Below are positions 1-32,658 of a stretch of 35,696 bases of DNA, one piece after another. Position 1 is the first letter of the stretch. Every line of letters starts with the position of its first letter. A model generated the notes under the pieces. It searched no databases and had not been told where the DNA came from. It worked only from the letters and a program-made list of their open reading frames with translations. The translations under genes were made by a program, and so were the position numbers. This DNA is from Lachnospiraceae bacterium (GTDB lineage Bacteria; Bacillota; Clostridia; Lachnospirales; Lachnospiraceae): positions 1 to 35,696 of the forward strand of contig JAFXXN010000081.1 of NCBI GenBank assembly GCA_017542245.1. Reading direction: 5' to 3'.

Positions 1-140
1 ATATCCCCCACCTCTTAGCGTAGCGAAGGTGGGGGGAGATCTTCGTTTCAGGCGGGGTTCAAGCCCCGACTGAAATGAGATGCGGAGCATCGTTTTGTTA
101 CCGAGGAAACGCAGAAGGCGTTTTCGAGGTGACATTGACT
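1..140 (+). repeat. Dispersed structured repeat, copy 1 (left end cut by window)
   Basis: Nearly identical to 7517-7657. It contains three potential hairpins: A, CCCCCACCT (5-13) with AGGTGGGGG (27-35); B, TTTCAG-g-CGGGG (46-57) with CCCCG-a-CTGAAA (64-75); C, GTTACC (97-102) with GGTGAC (128-133) enclosing GGAAACGC/GCGTTTTC and a GA/GA internal loop. It ends in CATTGACT, 46 bp before the first gene. Its function is unknown; it may be a transcribed leader element or a non-autonomous mobile repeat. Confidence 0.85.
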
Positions 141-186
141 AAAAATGACATGATATCTGTACAGTAAAAACGGAGGAAAAGAAATA

Positions 187-1218
187 ATGAAAAAAGTAGC
201 AGCAGTATTATTAATCCTTACCATGATCATGTCACTTGCGGCATGCGGCAAGAGTGAAGACAATGGAAAAAATGGGAGTTCGGACCAGATAAAAGTGGTT
301 GAGCAAACCACAAAGACGCCTGAGCCTACCAAGGAGGCAGAAACAACCAAGACTCCTGAAACAACCAAGGAACCCGAGGTGACCAAGGAGGCAGAGACAA
401 CACCTGAGGCTACACCTGAAGCTACGCCTACTCCTACGCCGGTTATAACAGAGGAACCTACTCAAGAAGAGGATGAATTCTATAGTGAAGGACATGGATT
501 TAACGGAACATGGAAGGCAGACGGTTGTACTCTGGTTATTATGGCTGAAGGCGCTGCGGATGTCATCTATGCCTGTTTCGAAAACACAGACCGTGAATCT
601 TTCGGAAGCTGGCATGAGATCTGGACAAATTATGATGAGGATAGGAGAGCATTTGTAGGTTCAAATGATCAGTATTTCTATTTTGCTAACGGTGAATTAC
701 AGTGTGATAACATTGAAAGTGTTAATACTTTCAATGCTAAGGGAGACAATATGTATTGGGTCGAGGAAGACTTGGGATTTAAAAGGACTTCTTATGAATG
801 TGAGGAACTTGTTTTTGTAGAAAAGGAAACAGAAAATGATTACTGGTATGAAGATGAATTTTATAATCCCGGCCATAGATACTGCGGAGTTTACAAGGGC
901 GACAGAGGCTGCCTTGATATAGACGGGGAGGATTATGCCATTATTATAAGAGTATGCCTTGACCCTGATGCAGATCCTTATGGTAACTGGAACGAGTATT
1001 ATGAATACTGGGTGGATTATTCGGAAGAGGAAAAAACTTTCAGATGCCAATCTGAATATGCAGCACGGCACAAGTTCATTGTTGACGATGAATTAATCAG
1101 CGAATATGTTGACACTACATATTTCGTTATCGATGACTCAGGTGAGACGCCTCTTATCGGATGGCCTATAGAACAGGCTGACTTTTTCCAGATTCGTAAT
1201 GATGGGTACGATTATTGA
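187..1218 (+). CDS. Secreted lipoprotein with duplicated domain, function unknown
   Basis: 343 aa. A type II signal peptide ends in the lipobox LAAC, with the acylated Cys near residue 20, so the protein is probably anchored to the outer face of the membrane. Residues about 35-95 form a Thr/Pro/Glu-rich low-complexity linker made of TTKTPE/TKEAE-type units. After it come two diverged copies of a β-rich domain of about 110 aa. The first begins FNGTWKADGC and the second YCGVYKGDRGC, and each is preceded by an acidic EDEFY-x-x-GH segment. A related segment (FLGSYQCDRCGIDI) lies at the C-terminus of the protein encoded at 4520-5779. The start is supported by GGAGG 10 nt upstream. It is the first of five closely spaced same-strand genes for exported proteins. 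I do not recognise the domain. Confidence 0.85.
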   Translation: MKKVAAVLLILTMIMSLAACGKSEDNGKNGSSDQIKVVEQTTKTPEPTKEAETTKTPETTKEPEVTKEAETTPEATPEATPTPTPVITEEPTQEEDEFYSEGHGFNGTWKADGCTLVIMAEGAADVIYACFENTDRESFGSWHEIWTNYDEDRRAFVGSNDQYFYFANGELQCDNIESVNTFNAKGDNMYWVEEDLGFKRTSYECEELVFVEKETENDYWYEDEFYNPGHRYCGVYKGDRGCLDIDGEDYAIIIRVCLDPDADPYGNWNEYYEYWVDYSEEEKTFRCQSEYAARHKFIVDDELISEYVDTTYFVIDDSGETPLIGWPIEQADFFQIRNDGYDY

Positions 1219-1259
1219 TGGCAAATTGATAAAATTTAAGGGAAAGGACGGAAGAAAAG

Positions 1260-2405
1260 ATGAAAGCTAACATCATAAAAAAGGTTATAATTCTAATCCT
1301 GATTGCAGCTTTTACAATAGGAACAATGCCTGGCTATATATCTGTATCGGCCGCCACAAAACCTGCCAAGCCGACGATAACTGTTAAGGTAACAGATGAC
1401 GGAGAATTTGCTAAGGTAACGATTAATAAGACAAAAAATGCAGAAGGTTATCAGGTAGCTGCAAAGCTTCCCGGGGCTGAGAAATATAAAAAAATAGCTA
1501 CGGTAGAGCTTAACGGAAAGAAGAAGAGAAGTATTACTTTGAAAAATCTTCCTTATGGAACTTGCTCCATTAAAGTCAGAGGATATACAGTAAGCGGCGG
1601 AAAAAAGGTTTACGGTAAGTACAGCAAGGTTAAGACCATCACTATAGAGAAGTCTGAAAGCATTATCACAACCGACCTGAACGAAGCTAAAACAGGTGAT
1701 ATTATCGAGTTTGGCGTTTATGAGCAGGACAATAACTTTGACAATGGCAAAGAACCTATAGAATGGGTAGTTCTTTCAAATAATGGCTCACAATTGTTCG
1801 TAGTCAGTAAATATGCCATTGAGGCGGGAGTTATGGGTAACAGTTATGTTGAGGCTGAAAATGAGGATGAATATGACATATTGTTATGGGCAGCCAGTCC
1901 TTTAAGAAAATGGCTGAATGACGAATTTATAAAAGCGGCCTTCAATGAAACAGAGACGGCAATGATCGCAGATACAGAACTTACTGATTCTCAAACTATA
2001 GATAAGGTTTTTCTGCTTTCAAAGGATGAAGTATCAAATCCTGAGTATGGATTTGTTGATTACAAGTCACGCAGATGTGGAGCAACAAAATATGCTAAAT
2101 CCAGCCATGACAGGGATGGAGACGGATATGAGGAGTACGTTTGGACCTGTGATCCATATTTGGACGGAAAAATTCACAAGACAAATGATGGAAAGTATGC
2201 GTGCTTCTGGTGGCTTCGGACCGTGTTCGGGGATGAGGAATATGGAGAATACGAATTTGGAATAGTTTCTGAAGTTGGTTATATAACAACGAATGATTGC
2301 TATGGTGATGAAATGGATACCGAGCATTATGACGAGGATGAGGATTTTGGAGCCGACGGTTTTGGTATCAGACCTGCAATAGTAATAAACATAACATCTG
2401 CCTGA
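1260..2405 (+). CDS. Secreted fn3-like / DUF6273 domain protein
   Basis: 381 aa. An N-terminal signal peptide ends near SVSAA (about residue 31). Residues about 34-130 form a fibronectin type III-like domain (KPAKPTITVKV, then AEGYQVAAKLPG, then KVRGYTV and GKYSKVKTITI). Residues about 140-381 match the DUF6273 pattern: GDIIEFGVYEQD, EPIEWVVL, PLRKWLNDEF, DKVFLLSKDEV, FWWLRTV, and the terminal GIRPAIVINI. No sortase motif or membrane anchor is visible, so the protein is probably released or held non-covalently. A role at the cell surface (adhesion or ligand binding) is inference; DUF6273 has no established function. It starts 41 bp after the preceding lipoprotein gene and is a close paralogue of the gene at 3204-4469. 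Confidence 0.88.
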   Translation: MKANIIKKVIILILIAAFTIGTMPGYISVSAATKPAKPTITVKVTDDGEFAKVTINKTKNAEGYQVAAKLPGAEKYKKIATVELNGKKKRSITLKNLPYGTCSIKVRGYTVSGGKKVYGKYSKVKTITIEKSESIITTDLNEAKTGDIIEFGVYEQDNNFDNGKEPIEWVVLSNNGSQLFVVSKYAIEAGVMGNSYVEAENEDEYDILLWAASPLRKWLNDEFIKAAFNETETAMIADTELTDSQTIDKVFLLSKDEVSNPEYGFVDYKSRRCGATKYAKSSHDRDGDGYEEYVWTCDPYLDGKIHKTNDGKYACFWWLRTVFGDEEYGEYEFGIVSEVGYITTNDCYGDEMDTEHYDEDEDFGADGFGIRPAIVINITSA

Positions 2406-2414
2406 CAATTTTAT

Positions 2415-2423
2415 TGCTATAAT
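2415..2423 (+). promoter_or_regulatory. Possible extended -10 promoter
   Basis: TGcTATAAT lies in the 67-bp gap before the next lipoprotein gene, 50 bp upstream of its ATG. No convincing -35 box sits at the expected distance, so it would depend on the TG extension. It may give internal transcription within the exported-protein run. Confidence 0.4.
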
Positions 2424-2472
2424 AATTTAAGATCTATAAATCAAAAAATATAAGCCGGGAGATATTTGTATA

Positions 2473-3150
2473 ATGAAAAAAATATTATTATTTTCTTTTG
2501 TCGTCATGTTAATGTTTTCTTTTTCAGCATGCGGTTCATCTGATGGTAAGAATGGATCCGGAGGTAAAACGGATATCAATATCGTGGATAATCCGTTTAA
2601 AAAAGATTCCGCAGGCAAAGACAACGACGAAGGCGGACAGGATAATAATGAATCCGATAACAGCATATCAGATGATAATATATCTGATACGGAAGAGAAC
2701 AACGTGGATGAAGTAATATATACATATTTCAGCGTAGATACATCTACCGATTTCTTCTACATGGATACAAGCTTTTTGGGAGTTTCTTACAGTGAATTCA
2801 CGAAGAAGCTCAGCTATTGTGAGCTGACCCCGATTGAGGACTGGCCTTGGTGGGGAAAGAATCTGGAGATAGTATATGTTACATATGATGATGAATCATA
2901 TAGCTGTCTTTTCCAGAACAGAAAGCTTGTGTATGTGTATCGCGACTCAAAGGATGAAAAACAGGGCAAGAAATATTCTACTGCAGTATCATATTATGGC
3001 GAACCTTCGAGCACATCAGATTATTGGAGCGGCTCAAAGGATTACATCTGGAATCTTGACGGCTGTCATTACCAACAGCATGTAGAGATTTATTCAGAGG
3101 GTGACGGGCATTACAGACAACAATATGTTTCTAATGCTTACGTCGAATGA
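2473..3150 (+). CDS. Secreted lipoprotein, function unknown
   Basis: 225 aa. The signal peptide MKKILLFSFVVMLMFSFSAC carries a lipobox (FSAC, Cys20), predicting a membrane-anchored lipoprotein. Residues about 22-75 are a disordered Asp/Asn/Ser/Gly-rich linker. The folded part (about 78-225) begins YFSVDTSTDFFYMDTSFLG and contains FLGVSYSEFTKKL followed by alternating β-strand-like segments (LEIVYVTYDD, YSCLFQNRKLVYVY). The arrangement of a short helix followed by a strand-rich portion is loosely reminiscent of small BLIP/SmpA-type folds, but this is only an impression. It lies between two fn3-DUF6273 paralogues in the same orientation, with gaps of 67 and 53 bp. Specific function cannot be assigned. 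Confidence 0.82.
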   Translation: MKKILLFSFVVMLMFSFSACGSSDGKNGSGGKTDINIVDNPFKKDSAGKDNDEGGQDNNESDNSISDDNISDTEENNVDEVIYTYFSVDTSTDFFYMDTSFLGVSYSEFTKKLSYCELTPIEDWPWWGKNLEIVYVTYDDESYSCLFQNRKLVYVYRDSKDEKQGKKYSTAVSYYGEPSSTSDYWSGSKDYIWNLDGCHYQQHVEIYSEGDGHYRQQYVSNAYVE

Positions 3151-3203
3151 TCATACCTAAAATTTTATTAGGATAAATTAAAGAAAGATGAGGAAAACAA
3201 AAA

Positions 3204-4469
3204 ATGAAAAAGAATGTATTAAAAAAGATTCTTGCAGTTGTTCTTGTATTAGGAATATTTATAACAATATTTCCGAAAATTGAGCAGATATCAGCAGCAA
3301 CCAAACCTGCAAAACCGAAGATAACCCTTAAGGTATCGGAAGACGGGGCATCGGCTAAGCTGACAATTAAGAAAACAAGCGGTGCTGAAGGATACCAGAT
3401 TGTTGCAAAATTACCGGGAGCAAAGAAGTACACAGAAATTACTACATTAAAACTTGATGGAAATAAAAAGAGAAGCTTTACTTTAGAGAATGTTCCCGGT
3501 GGAGAGTATTTTGTAAAGGTAAGAGGATATGCTGTACAGAATGGAAAGACTGTATGGGGTAAATATAGTAAGGTTAAGTCAGTAACGATAGAAAATAAAA
3601 TCACTGATATGGGAATAGAGAAAGGTGACATTATAACATTTGGATCTTTTGAACAGGACGGAGATCTTGAAAACGGCAGCGAACCTATTGAATGGATAGT
3701 TTTATCCAAAGAGGATGGCAAGCTGTTCCTTACAAGTGTTTATGTACTTGCACCCGGAAATATTGATGATGGGGTCGGATTAATCTCATACAATGATGAA
3801 GATGAAGATGAGGATGAGGATGACGACGATGAAGATACCGAATACTTCAAGAGTTGGAGTAAAAGCGGTATGAGAAAGTGGCTTAATGGCGAATTTCTTT
3901 CCAACTCTTTTAATGAGAAGGAAGCTGCTATTATAGCTGATACCGAATTAAAGGATGCAGGATGCACGGATAAGGTTTTCCTTCTGTCAAAGGATGATGT
4001 TAAGAATAAAGAATATGGATTCATCAGTGCTGCTTATCGTGCATGTGCTCCCACTCATCATGCTTTATGGTTTGAGCTGGTAGATGATTACGGAGACGAT
4101 TTTTATGATGGCGTCTGGACATGGGATGAAGGCGGATATTATGAAGTAAATGGCCGTACAGCTTGTTATTGGTGGCTGCGTACTATGGGAACCGGAACCA
4201 GTGAATATTATGTTGTAAATGACGACGGATCAATGGGAAAATCTTATGGTGATGGAATTGATTATTACGCCGGACATTCTGACTATGATGAAGAATTTTA
4301 TATTGAGAATGGCGGAATAGGTATCAGGCCTGCCCTGGTGATCAATATAACCGGTGATATGAAGAATTATATTACTAAGACCGGTAACACCATGCAGGAC
4401 GAATGGTCGACAGCTAAATGGGTAAGTGAAGATTATGATGATGACGATGATGATGAGGATGACGACTGA
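3204..4469 (+). CDS. Secreted fn3-like / DUF6273 protein with acidic tracts
   Basis: 421 aa. A signal peptide (to about residue 30, QISAA) is followed by an fn3-like domain at about 33-130 (KPAKPKITLKV, AEGYQIVAKLPG, KVRGYAV, GKYSKVKSVTI). A DUF6273 domain follows at about 135-390, with GDIITFGSFEQD, EPIEWIVL, MRKWLNGEF, DKVFLLSKDDV, YWWLRTM and GIRPALVINI. It differs from its paralogue at 1260-2405 in two acidic insertions: an Asp/Glu run at about residues 198-212, and a C-terminal tail made almost only of Asp and Glu after a short Trp-containing segment. Such tracts could bind divalent cations or act as a charged spacer (inference). The start is supported by GAGG upstream. The poly-Ser reading frame opposite the acidic tract is a shadow. 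Confidence 0.88.
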   Translation: MKKNVLKKILAVVLVLGIFITIFPKIEQISAATKPAKPKITLKVSEDGASAKLTIKKTSGAEGYQIVAKLPGAKKYTEITTLKLDGNKKRSFTLENVPGGEYFVKVRGYAVQNGKTVWGKYSKVKSVTIENKITDMGIEKGDIITFGSFEQDGDLENGSEPIEWIVLSKEDGKLFLTSVYVLAPGNIDDGVGLISYNDEDEDEDEDDDDEDTEYFKSWSKSGMRKWLNGEFLSNSFNEKEAAIIADTELKDAGCTDKVFLLSKDDVKNKEYGFISAAYRACAPTHHALWFELVDDYGDDFYDGVWTWDEGGYYEVNGRTACYWWLRTMGTGTSEYYVVNDDGSMGKSYGDGIDYYAGHSDYDEEFYIENGGIGIRPALVINITGDMKNYITKTGNTMQDEWSTAKWVSEDYDDDDDDEDDD

Positions 4470-4519
4470 GAATAGATATTTATGTTCTCGCTATTTTCAA
4501 AAATGATTCGGAGGGAAAA

Positions 4520-5779
4520 ATGAAATCAGGATTTAAGATGTTTACTAAGGTGCTTGTTGCATTAGCTATGGCACTATGCATAGTGTTTACGGTGCTTCCG
4601 GGATCGGATGTGCAGGCGGCCAAGAAGATGACAAACAAAAGTGCACAGAAGATCTTAAAAAAGAAGATTAAGAATAAGTTTTGCAGTTACACATTCGCAG
4701 ATATTGACAATGACAACATTGACGAAATGTTTGTTCTGAGATACAGCAGCAAATTTATTGACGGCGATGCGAAGATGAAGAAACTTATTGTTTATAAAGT
4801 AGTTAACAATAAGGCAAAGGCCATTTTTACTGATTCAATAGAAGGAGATATGTTCCACCCTACAATTACATTTGAATTGTTCAATGGTGATAATTTCTAT
4901 ATGACAGTAAACCACGATCATGAGGATTATGCGAGTTCTGTAGTGTATATGTATGGAGCTGACAGCTTTAATGAGATAGCCAGACTTGAAGCTGATTTGG
5001 CAAGCAATGAGGTAGAATTTCGTATCAGAGGCAAGGTGTGCTCGGAGGATGAATTCTTTGGGTTCATTAGTTCTGTTGATGCAGACCCCTTGGATTATAC
5101 TCTTGATTCCTGTTCCACAAAGGTTGCTAACAAGTATCTTAAGAAGATGTTAAAAGCAGAGTATAATTACAGATGCAAGACCGGTATTTATAATAAGAAG
5201 ACTTCGAGCATTGTATATAGTGATGAGGACGGTGACGGAATTGACGAACTTATAGTAAGGATAAATGCTGTAAGCGGCGAAATCCTTTATGCTATCCGTC
5301 CTAATGACAGTACAGGCGACTACTATGTTGACAGCATATCTTATGCTATCGAAGATGGGAAAATCGTATATGGTCTCCCTGTTGATTATGAAGGTGATGA
5401 AAGCTTGGGAGAATCTGACGGCGAACAGTTCCTTGGAAGCTATCAGTGTGACAGATGCGGTATCGATATAGTAAGAGAAGGCGAATCAGCTTTCGTATTT
5501 GATATTAAGTGGGGTTCAAGTGCATTTGAAACAGACCAGTGGATTTACTTCGCATTCTATCAGGGCGAAGATAATGAAGGCAACGCATATTTCGTTTGCA
5601 GCGGCGGCGGTTCACATGTCAGACATATTACTGATATGGATACAGAAGAAACAGTTGATGAAGTCATAGGAGATGATCTGGCAGCTGAATTTGTTTTCAA
5701 GAACGGTAAGCTCTACTGGCATGATCTTTCAGATAAGGACAGCAGTGTTTCCGATATGGAATTTGAGAAGATAAAATAA
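4520..5779 (+). CDS. Secreted protein with D-x-D-x-D motifs, function unknown
   Basis: 419 aa. A signal peptide of about 33 residues ends in VQAA. Two segments have a Ca-binding-loop look: DIDNDNIDEMFVL near residue 65 and DEDGDGIDELIV near residue 238. Both resemble the FG-GAP/VCBS-like 'D-x-D-x-D-G-x-D-E-L' pattern common in exported Lachnospiraceae proteins. The C-terminal region (from FLGSYQCDRCGIDI, about residue 305) resembles the duplicated domain of the lipoprotein at 187-1218, which suggests the two are functionally linked. GGAGGG sits just upstream of the ATG. It is the last gene of the exported-protein run, followed after 54 bp by a hairpin with a T-tract. No enzyme motif was recognised. 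Confidence 0.83.
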   Translation: MKSGFKMFTKVLVALAMALCIVFTVLPGSDVQAAKKMTNKSAQKILKKKIKNKFCSYTFADIDNDNIDEMFVLRYSSKFIDGDAKMKKLIVYKVVNNKAKAIFTDSIEGDMFHPTITFELFNGDNFYMTVNHDHEDYASSVVYMYGADSFNEIARLEADLASNEVEFRIRGKVCSEDEFFGFISSVDADPLDYTLDSCSTKVANKYLKKMLKAEYNYRCKTGIYNKKTSSIVYSDEDGDGIDELIVRINAVSGEILYAIRPNDSTGDYYVDSISYAIEDGKIVYGLPVDYEGDESLGESDGEQFLGSYQCDRCGIDIVREGESAFVFDIKWGSSAFETDQWIYFAFYQGEDNEGNAYFVCSGGGSHVRHITDMDTEETVDEVIGDDLAAEFVFKNGKLYWHDLSDKDSSVSDMEFEKIK

Positions 5780-5788
5780 AAAAAGTTG

Positions 5789-5817
5789 TTGACAAATGTA
5801 TAAAAATACGTTAATAT
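5789..5817 (+). promoter_or_regulatory. Sigma-A type promoter upstream of gdhA
   Basis: TTGACA (5789-5794), a 17-bp spacer, then TAATAT (5812-5817). Transcription would start near 5824, about 125 nt before gdhA and only some 10 nt before a terminator-like hairpin. Confidence 0.75.
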
Positions 5818-5833
5818 ACTTTTTGGCAAAGGC

Positions 5834-5874
5834 AATGGGGTCTTTGGGCACACGCCCGAAGACTCTGTTTTTTT
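5834..5874 (+). terminator. Rho-independent terminator or attenuator in the gdhA leader
   Basis: A stem of about 16 bp pairs 5834-5849 with 5854-5869 (core GGGC-acac-GCCC, then TCTT/AAGA with one G-U next to the core), followed by seven T (5868-5874). It may end the upstream exported-protein transcript. Because a consensus promoter lies just upstream, it would also terminate transcripts starting there, so it could work as an attenuator. A second hairpin, GCAGATT/AATCTGC (5884-5904), precedes the ribosome binding site. Confidence 0.75.
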
Positions 5875-5925
5875 ATGAAATACGCAGATTTCGAAGCAAT
5901 CTGCACAAAAAAATACATTTAATAA

Positions 5926-7296
<1,371 letters not shown>

Positions 7297-7298
7297 TA

Positions 7299-7364
7299 AT
7301 CTCAGAAATTTTAGCGAGAAAGCTTAAGCTTTGCTTAAGCGCCGCGTTAAGAAATTTCTGAGAT
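7299..7364 (+). terminator. Large inverted repeat after gdhA
   Basis: ATCTCAGAAATTT (7299-7311) pairs exactly with AAATTTCTGAGAT (7352-7364). Inside it is GCTTAAGC-ttt-GCTTAAGC. It begins 2 nt after the gdhA stop codon. It lacks a clean T-tract, so it may be a 3'-end stabiliser rather than a simple terminator. Confidence 0.55.
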
Positions 7365-7413
7365 AGTAAAAAATTTCTGAGACAGCAAGAAATTTTAGCG
7401 AAAAAGCTCAAGC
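7304..7413 (+). repeat. Imperfect 26-bp direct repeat downstream of gdhA
   Basis: 7304-7329 and 7388-7413 share AGAAATTTTAGCGA-(g/a)-AAAGCT-(t/c)-AAGC, differing at two positions. A smaller direct repeat, AAATTTCTGAGA, lies between them (7352-7363 and 7371-7382). This looks like partial duplication of the 3' flank of gdhA. Confidence 0.7.
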
Positions 7414-7440
7414 CCATACAACATTGAGTTTGTGATTTTG

Positions 7441-7472
7441 GGTGGCAGGTCTGAAAAGGCTTGCCACCTTGT
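7441..7472 (+). terminator. Probable terminator hairpin
   Basis: GGTGGCA (7441-7447) pairs with TGCCACC (7462-7468), followed by TTGTTGTGTGT. The T-tract is imperfect. It most likely ends the gdhA transcript before the repeat-rich purA leader. Confidence 0.5.
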
Positions 7473-7499
7473 TGTGTGTCAAAGGAAAAGCTCTTGACA

Positions 7500-7657
7500 A
7501 TATAACAAAATAGAAGATATCCCCCACCTCTTAGCGTAGCGAAGGTGGGGGGGAGATCTTCGTTTCAGGCGGGGTTCAAGCCCCGACTGAAATGAGATGC
7601 GGAGCATCGTTTTGTTACCGAGGAAACGCAGAAGGCGTTTTCAAGGTGACATTGACT
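7500..7657 (+). repeat. Dispersed structured repeat, copy 2
   Basis: 7517-7657 matches copy 1 with one extra G in the hairpin A stem and one A/G change near the end. The preceding ATATAACAAAATAGAAGAT (7500-7518) is shared with copy 4 at 13418-13436, so the full unit is about 158 bp. All three hairpins (A, B, C) are intact. TTGACA at 7494-7499 would be a good -35 box, but the matching -10 (ATATCC) is poor; if it works, the repeat would be transcribed as part of the purA leader. Confidence 0.87.
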
Positions 7658-7662
7658 CACAT

Positions 7663-7732
7663 GGCGACAGGGGACGGTTCTCTGTCGCCAAAACAAGAAC
7701 TTTTTGACGACAGAGAACCGTCCCCTGTCGCC
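7663..7732 (+). repeat. REP-like 25-bp perfect palindromic element
   Basis: The 25-bp arm at 7663-7687 is the exact reverse complement of 7708-7732, with a 20-nt loop between. The core GACAGGGGACGGTTCTCTGTC resembles REP-type sequences seen near RAYT (TnpA-REP) transposases in several phyla. No such transposase gene is in this window. It lies in the purA leader, 62 bp before the start codon. Confidence 0.85.
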
Positions 7733-7794
7733 GCATTGGAACCGCAGCAGGCACGGTATCCGATGTGCAGCATGCCTGCGATAAGGTATAAAAT

Positions 7795-9069
7795 ATGTCA
7801 AACTGTGCTATTGTAGGTATTAACTGGGGAGATGAAGGAAAAGGCCGTATGGTCGATTTAGTCACAAAGGATTATCAGGTTGTAGTCCGCTATCAGGGTG
7901 GCGGAAATGCAGGACATACTGTAATAAATGAGTATGGAAAGTTTGCACTCCATCTTCTTCCGTCAGGAATATTCAGAAAAGATACAATAAATATTTTAGG
8001 AAACGGTGTTGCGCTCGATCCCGAAAATCTGATGAAGGAAGTAGAGGAAGTAAGGGCAAAGGGTGTTGCCATTACACCCGAAAATCTTAAGATCAGTGAC
8101 AGGGCTTCACTGCTTCTGCCTTGGCACAGAGATCTGGATGGGCTTGAAGAGGCAAGACTTGCAGATAAGAAATACGGTTCGACCAAGCAGGGTATTGCTC
8201 CGTTCTATTCTGATAAATATCAAAAGAAGACTATACTTGCGGGTGAACTTTTCTATCCTGAAGAGTTAATGGAACATTTAAAGGATCTGATGGAGTGGAA
8301 GAATCTTACCCTTGAGAAGGTATATGGCGCAAAGCCTGTTACTATGGATGATCTTAAAGCATGGCTTGATGAGTACTGCGAAAAGATTAAACCTTTTGTG
8401 GCAGATACGGGTGAAATTCTTAAGGAAGCTGTAAAGAATGGAAAGAATGTGCTCTTTGAAGCACAGCTTGGTGCACTTCGAGATCTTGATTACGGTATCT
8501 ATCCTTACACCACTTCGTCTAATACACTTGCAAGCTTTGCACCCGTAGGTTCGGGACTTCCGGGAGCAAAGATCGATAAAGTTATCGGTGTTGTAAAAGC
8601 ATATTCTACATGTGTTGGCGAAGGTCCATTTGTATGTGAAATGTTTGGCGAAGAGGCTGAAAAGCTGAGAGCAGAAGGACAGGAGTACGGTGCTAAAACC
8701 GGAAGGCCGCGTAGAGTAGGACCTGTTGATATAGTTGCTACCAGATACGGTGTAGAGTGTCAGGGGGCTACAGAGATAGCTCTTACCAAACTGGATGTTT
8801 TAAGTTATATGGAGAAGATTCCGGTATGTACAAAGTACAAACTCAACGGAAAAGAAACCGATCGCTTCCCGTTCCCGGCAGCACAGAACCTTGCAGAGCC
8901 CGTTATTGAATATATGGACGGCTGGAACTGTGATATCTCAAAGGCAAGAAGCTGGGATGATCTTCCGGATGCAGCTAAGAAATATGTAACATACATTGAG
9001 AAAGAAATAGGCTGCTTTATTAAGTATGTATCGGTCGGACCCGAGAGGGAAAGCATAATTATAAGGTAA
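7795..9069 (+). CDS. purA: Adenylosuccinate synthase
   Basis: 424 aa, the normal length for the family. It catalyses the GTP-dependent condensation of IMP and aspartate to adenylosuccinate, the committed step towards AMP, in the cytosol. Signature: NWGDEGKGR at residues 10-18, with catalytic Asp13, and GGGNAGHTV at 36-43 with catalytic His41. The usual GDEGKGK motif ends in Arg here. KTGRPRRVGPVDIVATRYG and the Lys/Asp-containing TKLDVLSY near the C-terminal third are also typical. The Shine-Dalgarno (ATAAGG) is weak, and a 7-bp hairpin, GCAGGCA/TGCCTGC (7747-7779), ends 15 nt before the start. The whole leader is unusually rich in hairpins. A canonical terminator follows, so the gene is probably transcribed alone. 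Confidence 0.95.
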   Translation: MSNCAIVGINWGDEGKGRMVDLVTKDYQVVVRYQGGGNAGHTVINEYGKFALHLLPSGIFRKDTINILGNGVALDPENLMKEVEEVRAKGVAITPENLKISDRASLLLPWHRDLDGLEEARLADKKYGSTKQGIAPFYSDKYQKKTILAGELFYPEELMEHLKDLMEWKNLTLEKVYGAKPVTMDDLKAWLDEYCEKIKPFVADTGEILKEAVKNGKNVLFEAQLGALRDLDYGIYPYTTSSNTLASFAPVGSGLPGAKIDKVIGVVKAYSTCVGEGPFVCEMFGEEAEKLRAEGQEYGAKTGRPRRVGPVDIVATRYGVECQGATEIALTKLDVLSYMEKIPVCTKYKLNGKETDRFPFPAAQNLAEPVIEYMDGWNCDISKARSWDDLPDAAKKYVTYIEKEIGCFIKYVSVGPERESIIIR

Positions 9070-9080
9070 TTAAAGAATAG

Positions 9081-9113
9081 ATGACAGGAGGCAGGCTTCT
9101 CCTGTCATTTTTT
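9081..9113 (+). terminator. Rho-independent terminator after purA
   Basis: ATGACAGGAG (9081-9090) pairs perfectly with CTCCTGTCAT (9099-9108), an 8-nt loop between, followed by a run of T. It lies 11 bp after the purA stop. Confidence 0.9.
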
Positions 9114-9223
9114 CATGATAACAGGATGACTTTATTGTTAAACAGACTATTCAAAATAAAGAAACAGATTCCCAAAACATTATTACGTTTTCATTAAATG
9201 TATGTAAACTATTGGCTTTATGG

Positions 9224-9252
9224 TTGACGTTAAATAACTGATATGATATACT
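9224..9252 (+). promoter_or_regulatory. Sigma-A type promoter
   Basis: TTGACG (9224-9229), a 17-bp spacer, then TATACT (9247-9252). The start point would be near 9259, giving a leader of about 110 nt before the 9368 gene, which includes a mini-ORF. Confidence 0.75.
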
Positions 9253-9278
9253 ACCTTCACGGACGGGGGAAGACACCC

Positions 9279-9305
9279 ATGATAAAAAAACAGCAGTCCG
9301 TATAA
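9279..9305 (+). CDS. Possible 8-codon leader ORF
   Basis: ATG ATA AAA AAA CAG CAG TCC GTA TAA encodes MIKKQQSV. It is preceded by GGGGGAAGACACCC, almost the same ribosome binding segment that precedes the main gene at 9368 (GGGGGAGACACCC). ACGGAC (9259-9264) can pair with GTCCGT (9296-9301), folding the mini-ORF into a loop. It may be a leader peptide or a relic of duplication of the start region; expression is unproven. Confidence 0.35.
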   Translation: MIKKQQSV

Positions 9306-9367
9306 AGAACCGTGCCGTGTTTTATGATAGGCACATTATTTACAATTTAATAAAGGGGGAGACACCC

Positions 9368-10978
9368 ATGGAAAAAAACGTAACTATAATTGACACATCA
9401 GGCAGAAAGATAGGCGAAACTTATCCTAAAAGGGCAAAGGGGCTTATCAAAAAAGGTCGGGCAGAGTATGTCAGCGACTTTTGTATTAGAATGCCGGATA
9501 CTCATGTTCCGACCGTAGCGGATAATATAAAAACTATGGAGGAAAATAATATGAGTAAGGTTATAGGTTTTGAAGCAAGAGGATTTAAGATCGATCCTAC
9601 CTGCAAAGGAAATAATATTGCTAACAGAATGTTCGTTACCGATGCGCTCGGCAACAATGTAGAGGTTTATGAGATAGGTGATTACGGTTCAAACTGGACT
9701 CAGATATCTTATGAGATGCCGGTTGAAAAGAATGAGGACTATGAGTTCCTATTCGCTATGACGGGAGACATTGACGCACTTAATTCTCCCGGAGTAAAGT
9801 GTAATTTCATAATTATGCCCATACATGAAGAAGATTCTGATCAGGATTGGGACAATCGATATCAGTATAGTTTGCTACACAGAGACTATAGACCTGATAT
9901 GGAAAAGTTTTGGAACGGTTCAAGTATAAGGTTTTACCGCATACCGTTTAATACAGGTGATGCAGTAAAAATCCGCTTTGTATTTGTTGCATTCCAACGT
10001 CCTTACAAGGTTTTTCCTGTTAAGAATTTTGAAGAATACCGGTCTTTAGAAGATTTTAGGCAGGAATATAATGGTGGATGGCAGGCATTTAGGAAAGACT
10101 TTAAGCGTGATTTCAAGGGCAATCCTTGGAATTCTGACGGAAACAGAACTCAGAATTATAATTATAATGGACCTAAGGATTTCAAAGAAGCCGAAAAGAT
10201 AATGGGTAATATCGGAGCTGTAGTAAGTAAGGCCGTAAAAGAAGCTTTAGAAGGTCTTGATAAGATTCAGAAAGAAGGCTTTGGTAAATGGCAGAAAGAC
10301 GACAGGTCAAAACAAAAAGCAAACAGAAATTATTATTCTGACAGAAATTCAGATTATACGAGGGAACCGGATTGTGAAAAATCAGGCACTTCCGTCGGAA
10401 AGAGGAAAATCTACGCCGATCATCTTCAGGCAATTTTAAAAGGTCTGGAAGAAGATGATGAAAAGCTTGATCTGCAAGGCTGTGATATTGAAGGCGATAA
10501 AAATTTTATTCCCGGGAATGGAAATGATTCCTACACGGTTGACAGTATTACATTTGCTTTGGATAATTCTTCTATGGACGGTGACGCGTTCTGGAGGATC
10601 ATGGCTAAGGTTGGCGACTGCTGTACGGTAAACGGAAATAATGCTGTTTTAGGATCTTCAGAATACAGACCGGAACTTGCCGGAGCTTTTGAAAGCAGAT
10701 CAGACGATAGTAACTTTAATTTTGTGAATGCACAGATAAGTGAAGCTGCATTTATCAGTATACTGTCAAAGATTGGATGTTGTTGTAAGGTTAATTTCTC
10801 TAATGCCGACATTAAAGATTTTGAAGAATTTCCGGATCTTTCGGGCTTTTGCGATGAAGCTTTTGATGATACCGAAATCATTCTGGATAACACTACTATT
10901 TCCCAACGTCTCTATCAGGCACTTGTTAAGTGCATGGGAGAAGGTTCAAAAATATCAGGGAAAGCGGTTATAATCTAA
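9368..10978 (+). CDS. Unknown protein with RRXRR/PLMP-like N-terminus and C-terminal repeats
   Basis: 536 aa from the ATG with GGGGGA upstream; an in-frame GTG further upstream (9317) lacks a ribosome binding site. Residues about 4-36 (VTIIDTSGRKIG, TYPKRAKGLIKKGRA, FCIRM) match the layout of the RRXRR/PLMP domain at the N-terminus of IscB-type proteins: β-hairpin, then KRA(K/R)-x-L-x-K-x-GRA. No RuvC or HNH nuclease follows. A linker leads to an ATG at codon 62 (9551) with GGAGG at 9538-9542, so a shorter 475-aa form could also be made. About 65-230 is a β-rich region of unknown fold, and about 235-345 is charged and helical. The C-terminal 150 residues hold three similar units (LDNSSMDGDAFWRIMAKVG, VNAQISEAAFISILSKIG, LDNTTISQRLYQALVKCMG). 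No signal peptide, so probably cytosolic. The function is unknown. Confidence 0.85.
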   Translation: MEKNVTIIDTSGRKIGETYPKRAKGLIKKGRAEYVSDFCIRMPDTHVPTVADNIKTMEENNMSKVIGFEARGFKIDPTCKGNNIANRMFVTDALGNNVEVYEIGDYGSNWTQISYEMPVEKNEDYEFLFAMTGDIDALNSPGVKCNFIIMPIHEEDSDQDWDNRYQYSLLHRDYRPDMEKFWNGSSIRFYRIPFNTGDAVKIRFVFVAFQRPYKVFPVKNFEEYRSLEDFRQEYNGGWQAFRKDFKRDFKGNPWNSDGNRTQNYNYNGPKDFKEAEKIMGNIGAVVSKAVKEALEGLDKIQKEGFGKWQKDDRSKQKANRNYYSDRNSDYTREPDCEKSGTSVGKRKIYADHLQAILKGLEEDDEKLDLQGCDIEGDKNFIPGNGNDSYTVDSITFALDNSSMDGDAFWRIMAKVGDCCTVNGNNAVLGSSEYRPELAGAFESRSDDSNFNFVNAQISEAAFISILSKIGCCCKVNFSNADIKDFEEFPDLSGFCDEAFDDTEIILDNTTISQRLYQALVKCMGEGSKISGKAVII

Positions 10979-10999
10979 CTTTACTAATATAAAAAATTA

Positions 11000-11086
11000 A
11001 AGATATCCCACACCTTTTAGCGTAGCGAAGGTGAAGGGATATCTTCTTTTGTTACCAGGAAATGCTGAAGGCGTTTTCGAGGTGAC
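11000..11086 (+). repeat. Dispersed structured repeat, copy 3 (lacks hairpin B)
   Basis: It contains hairpin A, here extended to GATATCCC/GGGATATC around the conserved TTAGCGTAGCGAAGG segment, and hairpin C (GTTACC…GGTGAC), in which C has become T opposite G, keeping the stem. Hairpin B is absent. It fills the gap between convergent genes and runs to 5 bp before the end of the helicase gene; a T-tract follows (11085-11091), so it could also act as terminator for the 9368 gene. Confidence 0.8.
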
Positions 11087-11090
11087 TTTT

Positions 11091-13259
11091 TTAGCCTGTA
11101 AGTAATTTGATTTCATCCTCCGTATATTTTTTACGTATACGATCTATTTCATCTTCCATTATAGAATTGATGGTACTGTTATCAAGTTCCATATCTTTTC
11201 TTGCCGCGGCAGAATCATCGGCGAAGGTATTGAATTCTTCCTGTTTCTCATAAAGTATCTGCATGATCCGTTCTTCTATCGTATTTGTACAAAGCAGCCT
11301 GTGGACAAGAACATTTCTTGTCTGCCCCATACGGTATGCTCTGGAAATAGCCTGGCTTTCAACCGATGGTTTGTACTGAGGCTCACAGATTACAACAACA
11401 CTGGCAGTCTGGATATTTAATCCTGTCCCGCCTGATTGTATCTGCGCCGCCAGCACAGTTCCCGGACGTGCAGCGTCAAATTCATCTATGATTTTCTGCC
11501 TTTCGGCAGGAGGAACCGAACCGTTGATCACACCGACACAGCCCTGACCGAATATTGTCTGCACTTTTTCAAGGGTATCCAAGAAGAAAGAAAATATAAT
11601 TACCTTTCTTTCTTCCAATGTTGCATAATCAACGATTTCTCTTAGACGCTGTACTTTTACCGAAGAATTAAAATAATCCGGATTTCTCCAGGATACTCTT
11701 CTGACATCCATAATATTTTTGGCCACTACATCCTTGATATATTGAGCTTCATCCTCATGTGTCATCTCACACCAATCCTGCATTTGGACAAGTTCAGGAA
11801 GCTCTGCAAGTACATCTTCACGTTTGCGTCTGTAGTATACCGGAGATATCCTTTCTTTAAAATAATCGGCATATGCAGATGTACTTACATCCTTTGCCAT
11901 ATCGGCTATCTCGGGCTGAAGGAATCCTAACAGCCGTATCATCTCGGAAACATTGTTTTCAAGCGGAGTTCCTGTCATGAAGAGTATTCTTGAAGTATGT
12001 TCGCATAAATTTAAGACATTCTTGCTTCTTTTGGTAGTTACATTTTTTATATAATGAGCTTCGTCCACAACTACCATGGATATCCTAAAATTTACGGGAA
12101 TAAAGAAATTACCAGATAAAGTTTCGTAATTTGTTACAGCAACCCCTCCATTATCAAGCCACTGCTGGAGTGTTAGTTCTTTACCGTTTCCGTGAACTTT
12201 GTAAACATTAAGATCGCTTTTGGATGCGACTTCCCTGCACCAGTTGATAATAACACTTGCCGGACATACTACGAGAAAGTGATTTTCACCCTGATTTCTC
12301 AAAGCTACCATAGCAGCAATGGCCTGAACAGTTTTTCCGAGACCCATTTCATCACCAAGAAGCACTCTTTGCTGACGAAGAATGTATTTTACTCCCCAGA
12401 CCTGATATCCTCTTAATGTACAACATAGTCCTTCAAGGTTCAGCTGTGTACTTTCTATTTCATATCTTATATCATCACTCAGACCGTAGCCGTCATTTAT
12501 GGTGTTAAAATGCTCCGGGACTATGTTTTCGAGTGCATTGAAGAAAGAGACTGAGTCGGATGCGAAATGTTCCCAGGCGTCACTTGCCTGCAGATTCATT
12601 ATATTCTGTATTTTGTCGGATAAAGGTCCGGGATTGACTGCAGACATACCGTTTATAAGCCGGTTATATGCATCAATGGCTTCCAGCTTTTTGCTCTCGG
12701 AAACAAAAAGCCATTTGATAGGATTTGACGCCCTCTTGATGCTTTTTAAATCTATGTCTGCATTGGGAGGTATTTCATTGGCAAGTTCTTGACATTCAGA
12801 ACCGAGAGACACAGCATGTATATACATTGATACATTTTTTACGAGAAGCGAATATTCATCACTCTTATTATCAAGGTTTAGTTTCAGCTTTATATGTTTC
12901 TTTATGTCAAAAGCTATCCTTTGAGCGATGGTCATGGTTTTAAGAGCCATGTTTTCACCTATGCCGTATATAGATGCAATTCTTGGTTTGCCGGCATTTA
13001 GAACATCGTAAATACTATTTAAGCCATGTTCTTTTAGAAGTCCAGTTCTTATTCCTGATTTATCGACATTGATCTCTTCGACCGGAATAGTTTTAAGTAC
13101 AGAACCATATTCCTTTTCTATAACATGCTGAACTGCATCCATGACTTTCATGCGGGATTCGCTGATAAGTCTTGAGGCATCGTCTACCGTATTACGGGCA
13201 TTACGGACTCTTTCGGTTATATGTCTTATATCTGCCCGGCGAAATTCTCGTTTTGTCAA
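11091..13259 (-). CDS. SNF2-family DEAD/DEAH-box helicase
   Basis: 722 aa, cytosolic. It reads from a TTG start with AAGGAG 7-8 nt upstream. The C-terminal two thirds are a complete Snf2-type ATPase: GDEMGLGKT (302-310, motif I), VVDEAHYIKN (DEAH at 399-402, motif II), LFMTGTPLEN (motif III), QSGGTGLNIQTA (motif V) and QAISRAYRMGQTRNV (motif VI, 636 on). The family translocates on double-stranded DNA or remodels DNA-protein complexes. The N-terminal 290 residues include a possible helix-hairpin-helix segment (GLNSIYDVLNAGKPRIASIYGIG, about 79-101, split here by eye) and have no zinc-finger SWIM motif that I could see. No methylase or nuclease partner is adjacent; the convergent 9368 gene is the nearest neighbour. 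It could be a housekeeping repair ATPase or part of a defence locus; the sequence does not decide. Confidence 0.9.
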   Translation of the reverse strand: MTKREFRRADIRHITERVRNARNTVDDASRLISESRMKVMDAVQHVIEKEYGSVLKTIPVEEINVDKSGIRTGLLKEHGLNSIYDVLNAGKPRIASIYGIGENMALKTMTIAQRIAFDIKKHIKLKLNLDNKSDEYSLLVKNVSMYIHAVSLGSECQELANEIPPNADIDLKSIKRASNPIKWLFVSESKKLEAIDAYNRLINGMSAVNPGPLSDKIQNIMNLQASDAWEHFASDSVSFFNALENIVPEHFNTINDGYGLSDDIRYEIESTQLNLEGLCCTLRGYQVWGVKYILRQQRVLLGDEMGLGKTVQAIAAMVALRNQGENHFLVVCPASVIINWCREVASKSDLNVYKVHGNGKELTLQQWLDNGGVAVTNYETLSGNFFIPVNFRISMVVVDEAHYIKNVTTKRSKNVLNLCEHTSRILFMTGTPLENNVSEMIRLLGFLQPEIADMAKDVSTSAYADYFKERISPVYYRRKREDVLAELPELVQMQDWCEMTHEDEAQYIKDVVAKNIMDVRRVSWRNPDYFNSSVKVQRLREIVDYATLEERKVIIFSFFLDTLEKVQTIFGQGCVGVINGSVPPAERQKIIDEFDAARPGTVLAAQIQSGGTGLNIQTASVVVICEPQYKPSVESQAISRAYRMGQTRNVLVHRLLCTNTIEERIMQILYEKQEEFNTFADDSAAARKDMELDNSTINSIMEDEIDRIRKKYTEDEIKLLTG

Positions 13260-13604
13260 AGGGATATCTCCTTATAATTTTATTAAATTTGAATAGTGAC
13301 AATACATGAGTAATCTGTATTTTCATCCTACAACACGGTTATAACACTGTCAAGACAAAAAAAGCAGAACCCGGTTGTTTTATATGTTGATACTAAAGAA
13401 AAATATTAAAAATGCCGATATAACAAAATAGAAGATGTGGATTATTATTTTGTTACCGGGGGAAACAATGGAGGTGTTTTCAAGGTGGCATTGACTTATA
13501 TATTAGAGAAGTACAGTCCGGAACAAAAATTTATCTTTGGTTCCGCACCGGTGTTTAACAGGCAGGACATCGGTGTTTTACAAAGCCTGTAACAGGGATA
13601 TGGT
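13260..13604. other. Divergent intergenic region
   Basis: 345 bp between the helicase (-) and the transglutaminase-like gene (+). It holds repeat copy 4 (13418-13496). Downstream are hairpins GGAAC/GGTTCC-type (about 13518-13543) and ACAGGC/GCCTGT (13558-13563 with 13586-13591), and a short direct repeat (CCGGTGTTTaACA, TCGGTGTTTtACA). No consensus promoter was found for either gene. Confidence 0.5.
13418..13496 (+). repeat. Dispersed structured repeat, copy 4 (lacks hairpins A and B)
   Basis: It begins with the same 19 bp as copy 2 (ATATAACAAAATAGAAGAT) and ends with the same CATTGACT, but the middle is replaced by a short AT-rich segment. Hairpin C survives as GTTACC/GGTGGC and GGAAACA/TGTTTTC. 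Several base changes relative to copies 1-2 keep pairing, which argues for selection on, or recent mobility of, the RNA structure. Confidence 0.75.
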
Positions 13605-27606: not shown

Positions 27607-27841
27607 TTTCTGTTATAAAGCAATATTATTCGGGGGAAAGAGAGGTCGAATAGAATATTCAAGAAAATAAAATTATTCAGCTGAAAGGTTTGCCTGAATG
27701 ATATGTATTTCGGAATCAGTGTGGTATAAATCTGAATCCGGAAAGAAGCAACTGAAGTTATAGGTGAAGAATGCAGGAAGGAGATACAGATTAATGACAG
27801 TAGACAGGGATAGTAATCGTAGAAAAAGAAAGGTTGATACG
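27607..27841 (+). other. Intergenic stretch, probably decayed coding sequence
   Basis: One frame reads VIKQYYSGEREVE, NIQENKIIQLKGLPE and YVFRNQCGINLNPERSN between stops, suggesting a relic. It also contains an imperfect inverted repeat, CGGAATCAG/CTGAATCCG (about 27711-27740), upstream of the next gene. Confidence 0.35.
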
Positions 27842-29596
27842 ATGAACAATATTATAAAATGTGTCTTAGTAACTATTATAAGTGTTTTTTGTTATGCATC
27901 TGTTTCTACTTTTGCTGACGAGAACATAAAAAAGGGTGACTTATTGCTTTTTGGAACCTATGAGCAAGATAATAATTTAAAAAATGGAGCTGAACCAATA
28001 GAATGGATCGTGTTGGATGTTGACGAGAATAAAGGAAAAGCATTGCTCTTCAGTAAATATGTTTTAGATTGTAGATTATTCAATGAAGTAGAAGAATCCT
28101 GTAATGTGACATGGGAATATTGTACTTTAAGAAAGTGGCTGAATAAAGACTTTTACAACATAGCATTTACAGACAAAGAGAAAGAATCAATAGCTCTTAC
28201 AAAAAATAAGAATCCAAAGACAAGTGGATTTACTATTGATGGAAATGACACTAAAGATAGAGTGTTCTTACTAACACTATATGATCTTTTAAACGAAGAC
28301 TATGGATTTTCGAAATTCTATAGCATTGAAGATGAAAATCGTAGATGTGCCGCGACTCCATATGCTGTTTCTTTGGGTTTGTTTACACTAAAATATCAAA
28401 AAACAAAAGATGGATTAGACACTTGTGGCTATTGGCTTAGATCATCGGGAGACAGCTTGCAAGACGTGGTTACGGTAAATGCAGATGGCTCAATAGAAAT
28501 AAGGGGGCAGTATGCGAATAATAATGAGCTGCCATTAATATATTCTCGCAATGGTGTAATAGAAGACAGCGATGCTTTTAAAAGATATAACTTTGTAGGA
28601 GTTCGTCCTGCACTTTGGGTAAATTTAGCTGATGGGTTTGACATATTAAAACATGAAAAGCCTACCCAGCCAATCATTTCTGCGACTCAAAAAAATGATC
28701 AAATTATTCTTTCAATAGATGAGGCGTATAATGCAGATGGATATATTGTTTATGCCAAAGTTCCTGGAAAGAAAAAATATAAAAAAATCAAAACAATAAC
28801 CGAAAAAGGAGAAAAGCATTATACATGTATAATCAAGAAAATAAAAAAAGGAACATACAGTTTTAAGGTTAAAGCATATCGCTATGTTAATGGAACAAAA
28901 ATATTAAGTGATTATAGTAAAGCAAAAAAAATAAGTATAAGTGAAAAAACTTTTGCTGATAGCTATAAATCAGTGAAAGAAGGGGATACAATAACTTTTG
29001 GTTCTTATGATCAGAATTTTAATCTATCGGATGATCCTGAGCCTATTGAATGGAAAGTGTTATCTGTAGACGATACTGGGATATTGTTACTAAGTAAGTA
29101 TGCTCTTGATACAAAAGAATATCAGGAATCTGGGATGGTAGATTCTAGGAAATTTACAGAGTGGGAAGAGTGCTCTTTACATACATGGTTGAATGAAATT
29201 TTTTATTATAAAGCTTTTAATTGTGATGAAAGAGCTTTGATAAAAGAATCAATAGTGGATAATTATGGGCAAATTTCAAAAGATAAGGTTTTTCTTCTTT
29301 CGTATGATGATATAACCAATTCAAAATATGGCTTTTTGGATAAGCTGTCCGAAGAAAATAAAGGACGTGTGTGTGTTCCAACACAATCGGTCATAGAAAA
29401 TAGTATATTATTTAGTAACTCTAATATAAAAGAATATACATGTCGTTGGCATATATTGAATCCGTATGGTCATGTTAGTGATGCTCATTATATTGACACA
29501 TTTGTAGAATTTAATGGTGTTGTCAACGTTGCAATATGTCATTTGGGAGATAATGAATATTGTGTTCGTCCAGTGATAAAGTTAGGTTTAGACTAA
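27842..29596 (+). CDS. Secreted DUF6273-fn3-DUF6273 protein
   Basis: 584 aa from the ATG at 27842, which gives a standard signal peptide (MNNIIKCVLVTIISVFCYAS, end near STFA). An in-frame ATG at 27794 with AAGGAG 10 nt upstream is an alternative that would lengthen the N-terminus by 16 residues. Domains: DUF6273 at about 30-260 (GDLLLFGTYEQD, EPIEWIVL, TLRKWLNKDF, DRVFLLTLYDL, YWLRSSG, GVRPALWVNL); an fn3-like domain at about 265-360 (KPTQPIISA, ADGYIVYAKVPG, SDYSKAKKISI); and a second, more diverged DUF6273 at about 368-584 (GDTITFGSYDQN, EPIEWKVL, SLHTWLNEIF, CVRPVIKLGL). Compared with the 1260 and 3204 proteins the domain order is rearranged and duplicated. Codon use is AT-richer than in most of the window. 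The function is unknown. Confidence 0.87.
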   Translation: MNNIIKCVLVTIISVFCYASVSTFADENIKKGDLLLFGTYEQDNNLKNGAEPIEWIVLDVDENKGKALLFSKYVLDCRLFNEVEESCNVTWEYCTLRKWLNKDFYNIAFTDKEKESIALTKNKNPKTSGFTIDGNDTKDRVFLLTLYDLLNEDYGFSKFYSIEDENRRCAATPYAVSLGLFTLKYQKTKDGLDTCGYWLRSSGDSLQDVVTVNADGSIEIRGQYANNNELPLIYSRNGVIEDSDAFKRYNFVGVRPALWVNLADGFDILKHEKPTQPIISATQKNDQIILSIDEAYNADGYIVYAKVPGKKKYKKIKTITEKGEKHYTCIIKKIKKGTYSFKVKAYRYVNGTKILSDYSKAKKISISEKTFADSYKSVKEGDTITFGSYDQNFNLSDDPEPIEWKVLSVDDTGILLLSKYALDTKEYQESGMVDSRKFTEWEECSLHTWLNEIFYYKAFNCDERALIKESIVDNYGQISKDKVFLLSYDDITNSKYGFLDKLSEENKGRVCVPTQSVIENSILFSNSNIKEYTCRWHILNPYGHVSDAHYIDTFVEFNGVVNVAICHLGDNEYCVRPVIKLGLD

Positions 29597-29650
29597 GTTG
29601 ATTTTTAGTCTTGTTTTCTAAATATATATTATGCGAGATGAGGATACTAT

Positions 29651-32387: not shown

Positions 32388-32658
32388 TGCTGTGAGTTGA
32401 TAGCGTAGAAGCGTGAGGTTGCTGCAGCGTAAAAGCTGCAGGTTTTCCGTGGAGCGAATGTCAAGTTTACAAAACTGACGACAAGTCACTGTACAATTAA
32501 ATTTCTGCCGCGAGCAGATAAACCGTGGGTAAATCACAGTTTCTTAAGCCAGGCAAAACCTGGTTTGAATTTTGGAAGAGGCATGAAACACACGGGTGAG
32601 TGTACAGTCGCCGCTTGTTGTACTTTTAAAAAAGTGCGAAAAGGAGGAGACTTTTTTT
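32388..32658 (+). promoter_or_regulatory. Structured S10-operon leader RNA, possible ribosomal-protein autoregulation
   Basis: It holds a hairpin CTGCAGC/GCTGCAG (32422-32441), then a multibranch domain. The domain is closed by ACAAG (32481-32485) with CTTGT (32614-32618) and ACTGTACA (32488-32495) with its exact complement TGTACAGT (32601-32608). Inside are hairpins TCTGC/GCAGA (32504-32518) and AAGCCAGG/CCTGGTTT (32546-32566). S10 operons are often controlled by L4 binding to the leader in other bacteria; which protein acts here is unknown. Confidence 0.6.

Follow-up and report, generated by a model that had tools for sequence, protein, structure and literature searches.

The repeat family described here came to light in a 35,696-nucleotide stretch of DNA from a gut bacterium of the Lachnospiraceae (contig JAFXXN010000081.1; hereafter the window), in which an initial annotation saw four copies built from up to three hairpins, A, B and C, and read them as a non-autonomous mobile element and as a functional RNA. 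The observation is real, and the family is larger than first seen. Of the two readings, that of a mobile element stands, with 147 places in the window's own genome, subfamilies with different internal losses, tandem copies and sites that are empty in relatives in its support; that of a functional RNA does not follow. The family is probably a small non-autonomous mobile element that acts like a palindrome-associated transposable element (PATE) derived from the IS200/IS605 group.

The own genome is assembled as 4.72 Mb in 203 contigs. A pattern for the loop of hairpin A matched it 19 times with at most one mismatch, versus 0 for the reversed control, and a pattern for the left end 75 times, versus 0 for its control; both counts lie far above the controls, and hence chance is excluded. 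BLAST with the second window copy showed that most copies have a short form, and a covariance model was built from 12 of these. The search that the initial annotation had proposed, of the complete genome and of relatives, did recover further copies: at least 147 matches at E≤1 in the own genome, a floor because 150 of 3,989 candidates were scored. Applied at E≤0.01 to fetched loci (L numbers; contigs and compared genomes carry C and G numbers), the model gave 138 + 16 matches in 100 + 20 sources, corresponding to 147 distinct own-genome places. The two sets of 147 overlap and are not identical, and one of the places (L095:8797, minus strand) is a reverse match on top of a plus copy. Among 61 compared genomes, matches at E≤1e-3 occur in 15, all of them among the 24 of the same genus, and in 0 of the 37 of other genera. 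G000, G007 and G013 hold at least 77 matches each, and G022 and G001, whose PurA is 98% identical to that of the window, hold five each. In a set of 397 family-wide genomes, only the own genome matched at E≤1e-6 with the best 11 candidates scored per genome. Records containing the core motif include, among the matches listed, Lachnospiraceae assemblies such as Tb.RUG.194, Tb.RUG.456 and RUI091 and one from goat omasum; RUG in the Tb.RUG names presumably stands for rumen uncultured genome. Judged by titles and abstract openings, no description of the family was found in the literature.

The common form is about 72 nt long and consists of [C/T]AAAA, a small stem, hairpin C and TTGAC, with the consensus, drawn by eye, [C/T]AAAA[C/T]WGAAGATGCGRAGCATCRTTTTGTTACCGAGGAAACGCNGAAGGCGTTTTCGAGGTGACWTTGAC. 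The long form is this core unit with hairpins A and B carried inside it at GAT. There is also a ~93-nt subfamily that contains half of hairpin A (L104, L106, L107, L113, and L212 in another genome), a variant with hairpin C directly 3′ of TATAA(C) (L142, L185), one in which the small stem is swapped for another hairpin (L215), left-only remnants, and a long form that lacks C and keeps the right end (L378). Unit lengths thus run from about 72 to 151 nt, too short to encode a transposase. Contigs C146 and C149 start at one identical internal base of the long form, and C68 and C169 at a common internal base near its other end; evidently, the long form breaks assembly. Some loci have additional features: L238:3933-4085 is a tandem array of small stem plus hairpin C units, in whose stem TAATAAAA/TTTTATTA have changed together; at L050 (~1440-1630) and L147 (~1520-1660), copies are nested in another palindromic repeat (GTCATCC...GAAGGAT / ATTCTTC...AGAATGACA); and at L379 and L380 (ends of contigs C80 and C47) the same foreign sequence interrupts the hairpin A loop, and in L018 another end interrupts it, which looks like an insertion sequence (IS) preferring hairpin A.

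The ends of the family are sharp: the conserved stretch begins at TATAAC and ends after TTGAC, which is also the right end of ISDra2. Palindromes lie near the unit ends in folds and alignments, the end logos contain no terminal inverted repeat, and no target duplication is visible beside any of 69 full copies (2/69 match at the best boundary and length tested). Among 80 near-consensus units compared at fixed spacing, TATAA stands directly 5′ of 72; the other 8 have a deviating pentamer, and 2 of the 80 have a deviating unit start. Tandem joints place TTGAC directly before [C/T]AAAA, most clearly in L167, L182, L183, L187, L210, L043, L241 and L156. A unit-start-like sequence (two mismatches allowed) follows 20 of 216 right ends (control mean 4.0, maximum 10), whereas a whole TATAACAAAA follows in five cases, not above control (mean 3.3, maximum 7), of which only L090 could be a second left end. 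At thyA-DHFR and in L216 the front protein keeps its length and its stop codon lies at TATAA. Of the 111 own copies preceded by a gene on the same strand, 18 have the stop of that gene in the register of this TAA, 13 as exactly NTATAA; among the core copies of other genomes the figure is 15 of 43. That the moving unit extends from [C/T]AAAA to TTGAC, with TATAA as a pre-existing target, is moderately supported.

Presence or absence at the same site, which the initial annotation had suggested comparing between strains, does differ between species. At the junction of glutamate dehydrogenase (gdh) and purA, where window copy 2 lies, the unit is absent in all six relatives read (G022, G001 and G007 by alignment; G003, G019 and G006 by eye), which make up 6 of the 18 non-own purA loci. 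At a tRNA-synthetase junction (L083:9518) it is absent in 5/5 relatives, and three further sites of that region also have no unit in the relatives shown, with poorer alignments. Other filled and empty pairs are L104/L171, L120/L243, L138/L203 and L137/L203, and in the reverse direction L203 is filled where own L138 is empty. At one junction, L095 and L216 carry copies at different positions and L215 carries none. Self-BLAST of the fetched loci for base-perfect empty sites returned cross-species pairs only.

The copies are also strongly biased in position and strand. With genes called by a simple script, none of the 147 own places lies inside a gene; 98 are sense and five antisense in co-directional spacers (one of the five being the reverse match), 27 lie between divergent and 12 between convergent genes, and five have one neighbour missing. 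Copies lie a median of 36 nt before the next start on their own strand (n=129). In other genomes, 82 of 125 copies have both neighbours, the co-directional ones are 54:1 sense, and one copy lies inside a called gene. Co-directional spacers of own and other genomes together hold 152 sense copies out of 158, and the young core copies are 19:0 sense. The frequency of TATAA itself was rejected as the cause of this bias, since element-free co-directional spacers contain 105 sense versus 85 antisense occurrences. A third-position skew proxy, covering 18 contigs and 81 of the 147 copies, places 72 of the 81 along the putative leading strand, compared with 201 of 259 nearby genes. Where the neighbouring genes differ in direction, 21 of 26 copies still follow the putative leading strand (two-sided binomial 0.0025).

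These properties (no duplication or inverted repeats, hairpins, the TATAA rule, tandem joints and strand bias) fit an IS200/IS605-like element that moves as a single strand and is directed by a pentamer. The transposase, provided in trans, would bind the hairpins in single-stranded DNA and make its cuts on the 3′ side of TATAA and of TTGAC, after which that strand would be inserted. GTTA, 5′ of hairpin C, can pair with TAAC on the left and TGAC on the right, and may thereby act as a guide. Insertion of one strand only would produce the strand bias, and since TATAA forms a stop codon after NTA and also occurs in -10 promoter boxes, units would come to stand at stop codons and in leaders. Selection would remove insertions within genes and most antisense ones, while old copies would decay through point changes and partial deletion.

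Known systems offer partial parallels. The PATEs of Haloquadratum have no inverted repeats, palindromes near their ends, no target duplication and a length too short for a transposase; they occur in many copies, one form being 52 bp long (PMC3119063). Our family shares these four defining traits. PATEs, however, are described there as having ends like those of IS605-type transposons, and none such was found for this family, whose target is TATAA and whose layout is modular. ISDra2 inserts 3′ of TTGAT and carries tnpA (PMC2806898); the likeness lies in the hairpins, the absence of duplication, a putative fixed pentamer 5′ of the insertion and a proposed single-stranded mode of movement, and the difference in the pentamer and in our family having no gene. 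The BOX repeats of Streptococcus pneumoniae often provide the preceding gene with its stop codon (36 of 58 overlapping coding sequences) and resemble our family in their modular A/B/C layout, intergenic location, tandem modules and element-borne stop codon (PMC3049150). The same account gives BOX inverted repeats and target duplications, neither of which is present here, and has pneumococcal repeats over-represented between convergent genes, whereas our copies lie mostly sense in co-directional spacers.

Several observations weigh against the transposition reading. The mismatched sites in TATAA and in the unit start number 10 and 3 of 400 each at fixed spacing (p 0.09), which does not prove that TATAA lies outside the unit; with a free anchor (101 copies), TATAA varied in 10 and the unit start in 0, but this anchor favoured an intact start. 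The upstream C-terminus differs between L203 and L138, where the stop may be the element's own, and the stop at the tRNA-synthetase junction is GTATGA, where the gene ends one codon later than in four relatives and earlier than in G022. No excision or insertion event was seen, the empty sites all being between species. Replication alone is insufficient to explain the orientation: in co-directional spacers, the sense-to-antisense counts are 47:1 for lead-oriented copies and 3:1 for lag-oriented ones, and the strong sense bias among the former implies that transcription or selection acts besides replication.

The transposase partner provides the remaining points on this side. Around 29 loci from six incomplete genomes (15 Y1_Tnp and 14 TnpB; ~1.5 kb around each match), neither the family hairpins nor the left end was found, and G007, with its many family matches and 81% completeness, gave 0 Y1_Tnp matches. 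Only chance short matches occur at the transposase loci: one-mismatch decamers, a lone GGTGATATTGAC in L261 and a 16-nt BLAST match in L269. REP sequences moved by RAYTs are short, high-copy palindromes whose Y1 transposase acts in trans; the RAYT-like genes met here adjoin other repeats, of the GGGGACGGTTCTCTGTC and GGGGTCAGACCCC types, and not this family. A long autonomous copy was sought at left-end-only places, which turned out to hold short remnants adjoining ordinary-looking sequence. Carriage by phages or plasmids was likewise rejected: phage and plasmid collections gave no match, and two viral-contig matches share just a 20-mer in unrelated context. A link to an IS605-type transposon was looked for without success, and we therefore call the family PATE-like rather than a proven PATE. 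It is conceivable, though we think it unlikely, that these are minute hairpins seeking TATAA in stop codons and -10 boxes, entering only the strand bared by replication forks and transcription, filling operon gaps sense-wise, and moved by an enzyme that does not belong to the known IS605-type transposases.

The initial annotation took covariation as a sign of a functional RNA and asked for it to be tested statistically. When 177 unique core copies were aligned by sequence alone, hairpin C had 30 compensated cells versus 13.2 ± 3.3 in shuffles, the small stem 33 versus 13.7 and the outer stem 14 versus 5.3, every stem lying above the shuffles; broken cells in hairpin C number 216 versus 236. 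In 60 older copies of 60-80% identity, hairpin C has 18 compensated cells versus 13.0 ± 3.0 (65 of 1000 shuffles as high) and 84.9% versus 83.9% pairing (32 of 1000), its inner part 12 versus 6.7 (15 of 1000), and the small stem 23 versus 18.2. These values exceed the shuffles by less, and the signal therefore weakens but persists. A model-fitted alignment yields 51 compensated pairs versus 17.4, though such an alignment leans towards structure, and 3 of the 30 top corrected mutual-information pairs are stem pairs. Hence, covariation is significant but modest, and from these alignments a functional RNA is weakly supported; the same kind of signal would be expected from a hairpin required for mobility.

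A cis-acting RNA, whose hairpins in leaders and intercistronic gaps act on the translation, processing or stability of mRNA and which spread through usefulness, could account for the sense bias in own and other genomes, for the short distance to the next start and for the excess of compensated pairs in every stem. In diverged copies hairpin C is also preserved better than the left part, although the model may be biased towards detecting C, and some remnants hold the left part alone. We nevertheless consider this explanation improbable: relatives differ in presence at identical junctions, the genes identified next to copies (purA, thyA/DHFR, a class II tRNA synthetase) have no obvious common function, pairing in old copies is barely above independent decay, few of the top mutual-information pairs fall in stems, and no Rfam family matches at gathering score (best E 1.8, for copy 2). 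The sole Rfam match in the window lies elsewhere, at 32398-32484 (S10-Clostridia ribosomal protein leader, 83.8 bits). Sense orientation and the lack of target duplication would suit RNA-borne spread, in which a reverse transcriptase or an enzyme like it inserts a transcript or its copy and leaves sense and truncated copies behind, as would copies with an intact right part but no left part, and left-only ones. Truncation, however, occurs on both sides and is explained equally well by later deletion, and neither the TATAA rule nor the replication bias is predicted, which makes this route highly unlikely. There is still less chance of a classical miniature inverted-repeat transposable element (MITE), moved by a DDE transposase and with its inverted repeats and target duplication since eroded. 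Size, hairpins, copy number and intergenic location are like those of MITEs and of the modular BOX repeats, yet the ends of young copies (TATAAC or CAAAA versus TTGAC) are not inverted repeats, their flanks hardly match, and a strand fixed relative to both replication and transcription is not expected.

Within the window, all four copies were read from the sequence and aligned on the + strand, near the positions first given, with refined limits (Table 1); with TATAA counted in, copy 2 spans 7501-7656 and copy 4 spans 13419-13495, and copy 3 begins at 10988 rather than 11000. The modules proposed for the first three copies stand (A, B and C in copies 1 and 2, which thus have two hairpins more than the common form; A and C in copy 3), whereas copy 4, initially taken as C alone, is a complete common form with left end, small stem and hairpin C. 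The right end of copy 3 reads GTGACTTTTTTAG where GTGACATTGAC is expected. The base changes pointed out in hairpin C do exist, as a G-U wobble in copy 3 and a G-C to A-U change in copy 4. The predicted fold of copy 2 (-72.5 kcal/mol, z -8.6) contains hairpins A and B, the small stem and C; the z-score is -6.7 for copy 3 and just -1.3 for copy 4. The context was also described correctly for the window, with three copies before genes and one between convergent genes.

Table 1. Repeat copies in the window and their parts
Feature	Position	Strand	Remarks
Copy 1, long form	1..139	+	Left end lost at start of contig C149; TTGAC at 135-139
TATAA left of copy 2, putative target pentamer	7501..7505	+	
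Copy 2, complete long-form unit (hairpins A, B, small stem, C, TTGAC)	7506..7656	+	Between glutamate dehydrogenase-family gene and purA
Hairpin A of copy 2	7513..7561	+	Predicted fold
Hairpin B of copy 2	7562..7593	+	Predicted fold
Small stem GATGC/GCATC of copy 2	7596..7608	+	Predicted fold and compensated cells
Hairpin C of copy 2, GTTACC...GGTGAC	7614..7650	+	Predicted fold and compensated cells
Copy 3, TATAA + A + C form	10988..11086	+	TTGAC end replaced by T run; between convergent genes
TATAA left of copy 4, putative target pentamer	13419..13423	+	
Copy 4, diverged complete core unit, 72 nt	13424..13495	+	TTGAC at 13491-13495

Other features of the window lie close to these copies. Directly 3′ of hairpin C of copy 3, at 11080-11095, TTTTTTT stands between the convergent genes as a possible terminator that is absent from the terminator scan list. 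Immediately 3′ of copy 2, at 7661-7735, is a palindromic repeat with GGGGACGGTTCTCTGTC, and the same motif adjoins a RAYT-like Y1 gene in L268. Farther away, 1260-4469 and 27764-32005 encode several secreted-looking proteins with segments alike by eye; the one scanned, at 1260-2405, has DUF6273.

Taken together, our results point to a class of mobile DNA without genes that is abundant within a single uncultured bacterial genus, interrupts assemblies and can be mistaken for riboswitch-like RNA. With its TATAA rule and sense orientation, it becomes testable how a gene-less element spreads within operons without shutting them off. A further testable question is whether transcription, besides replication, opens the strand that is entered.

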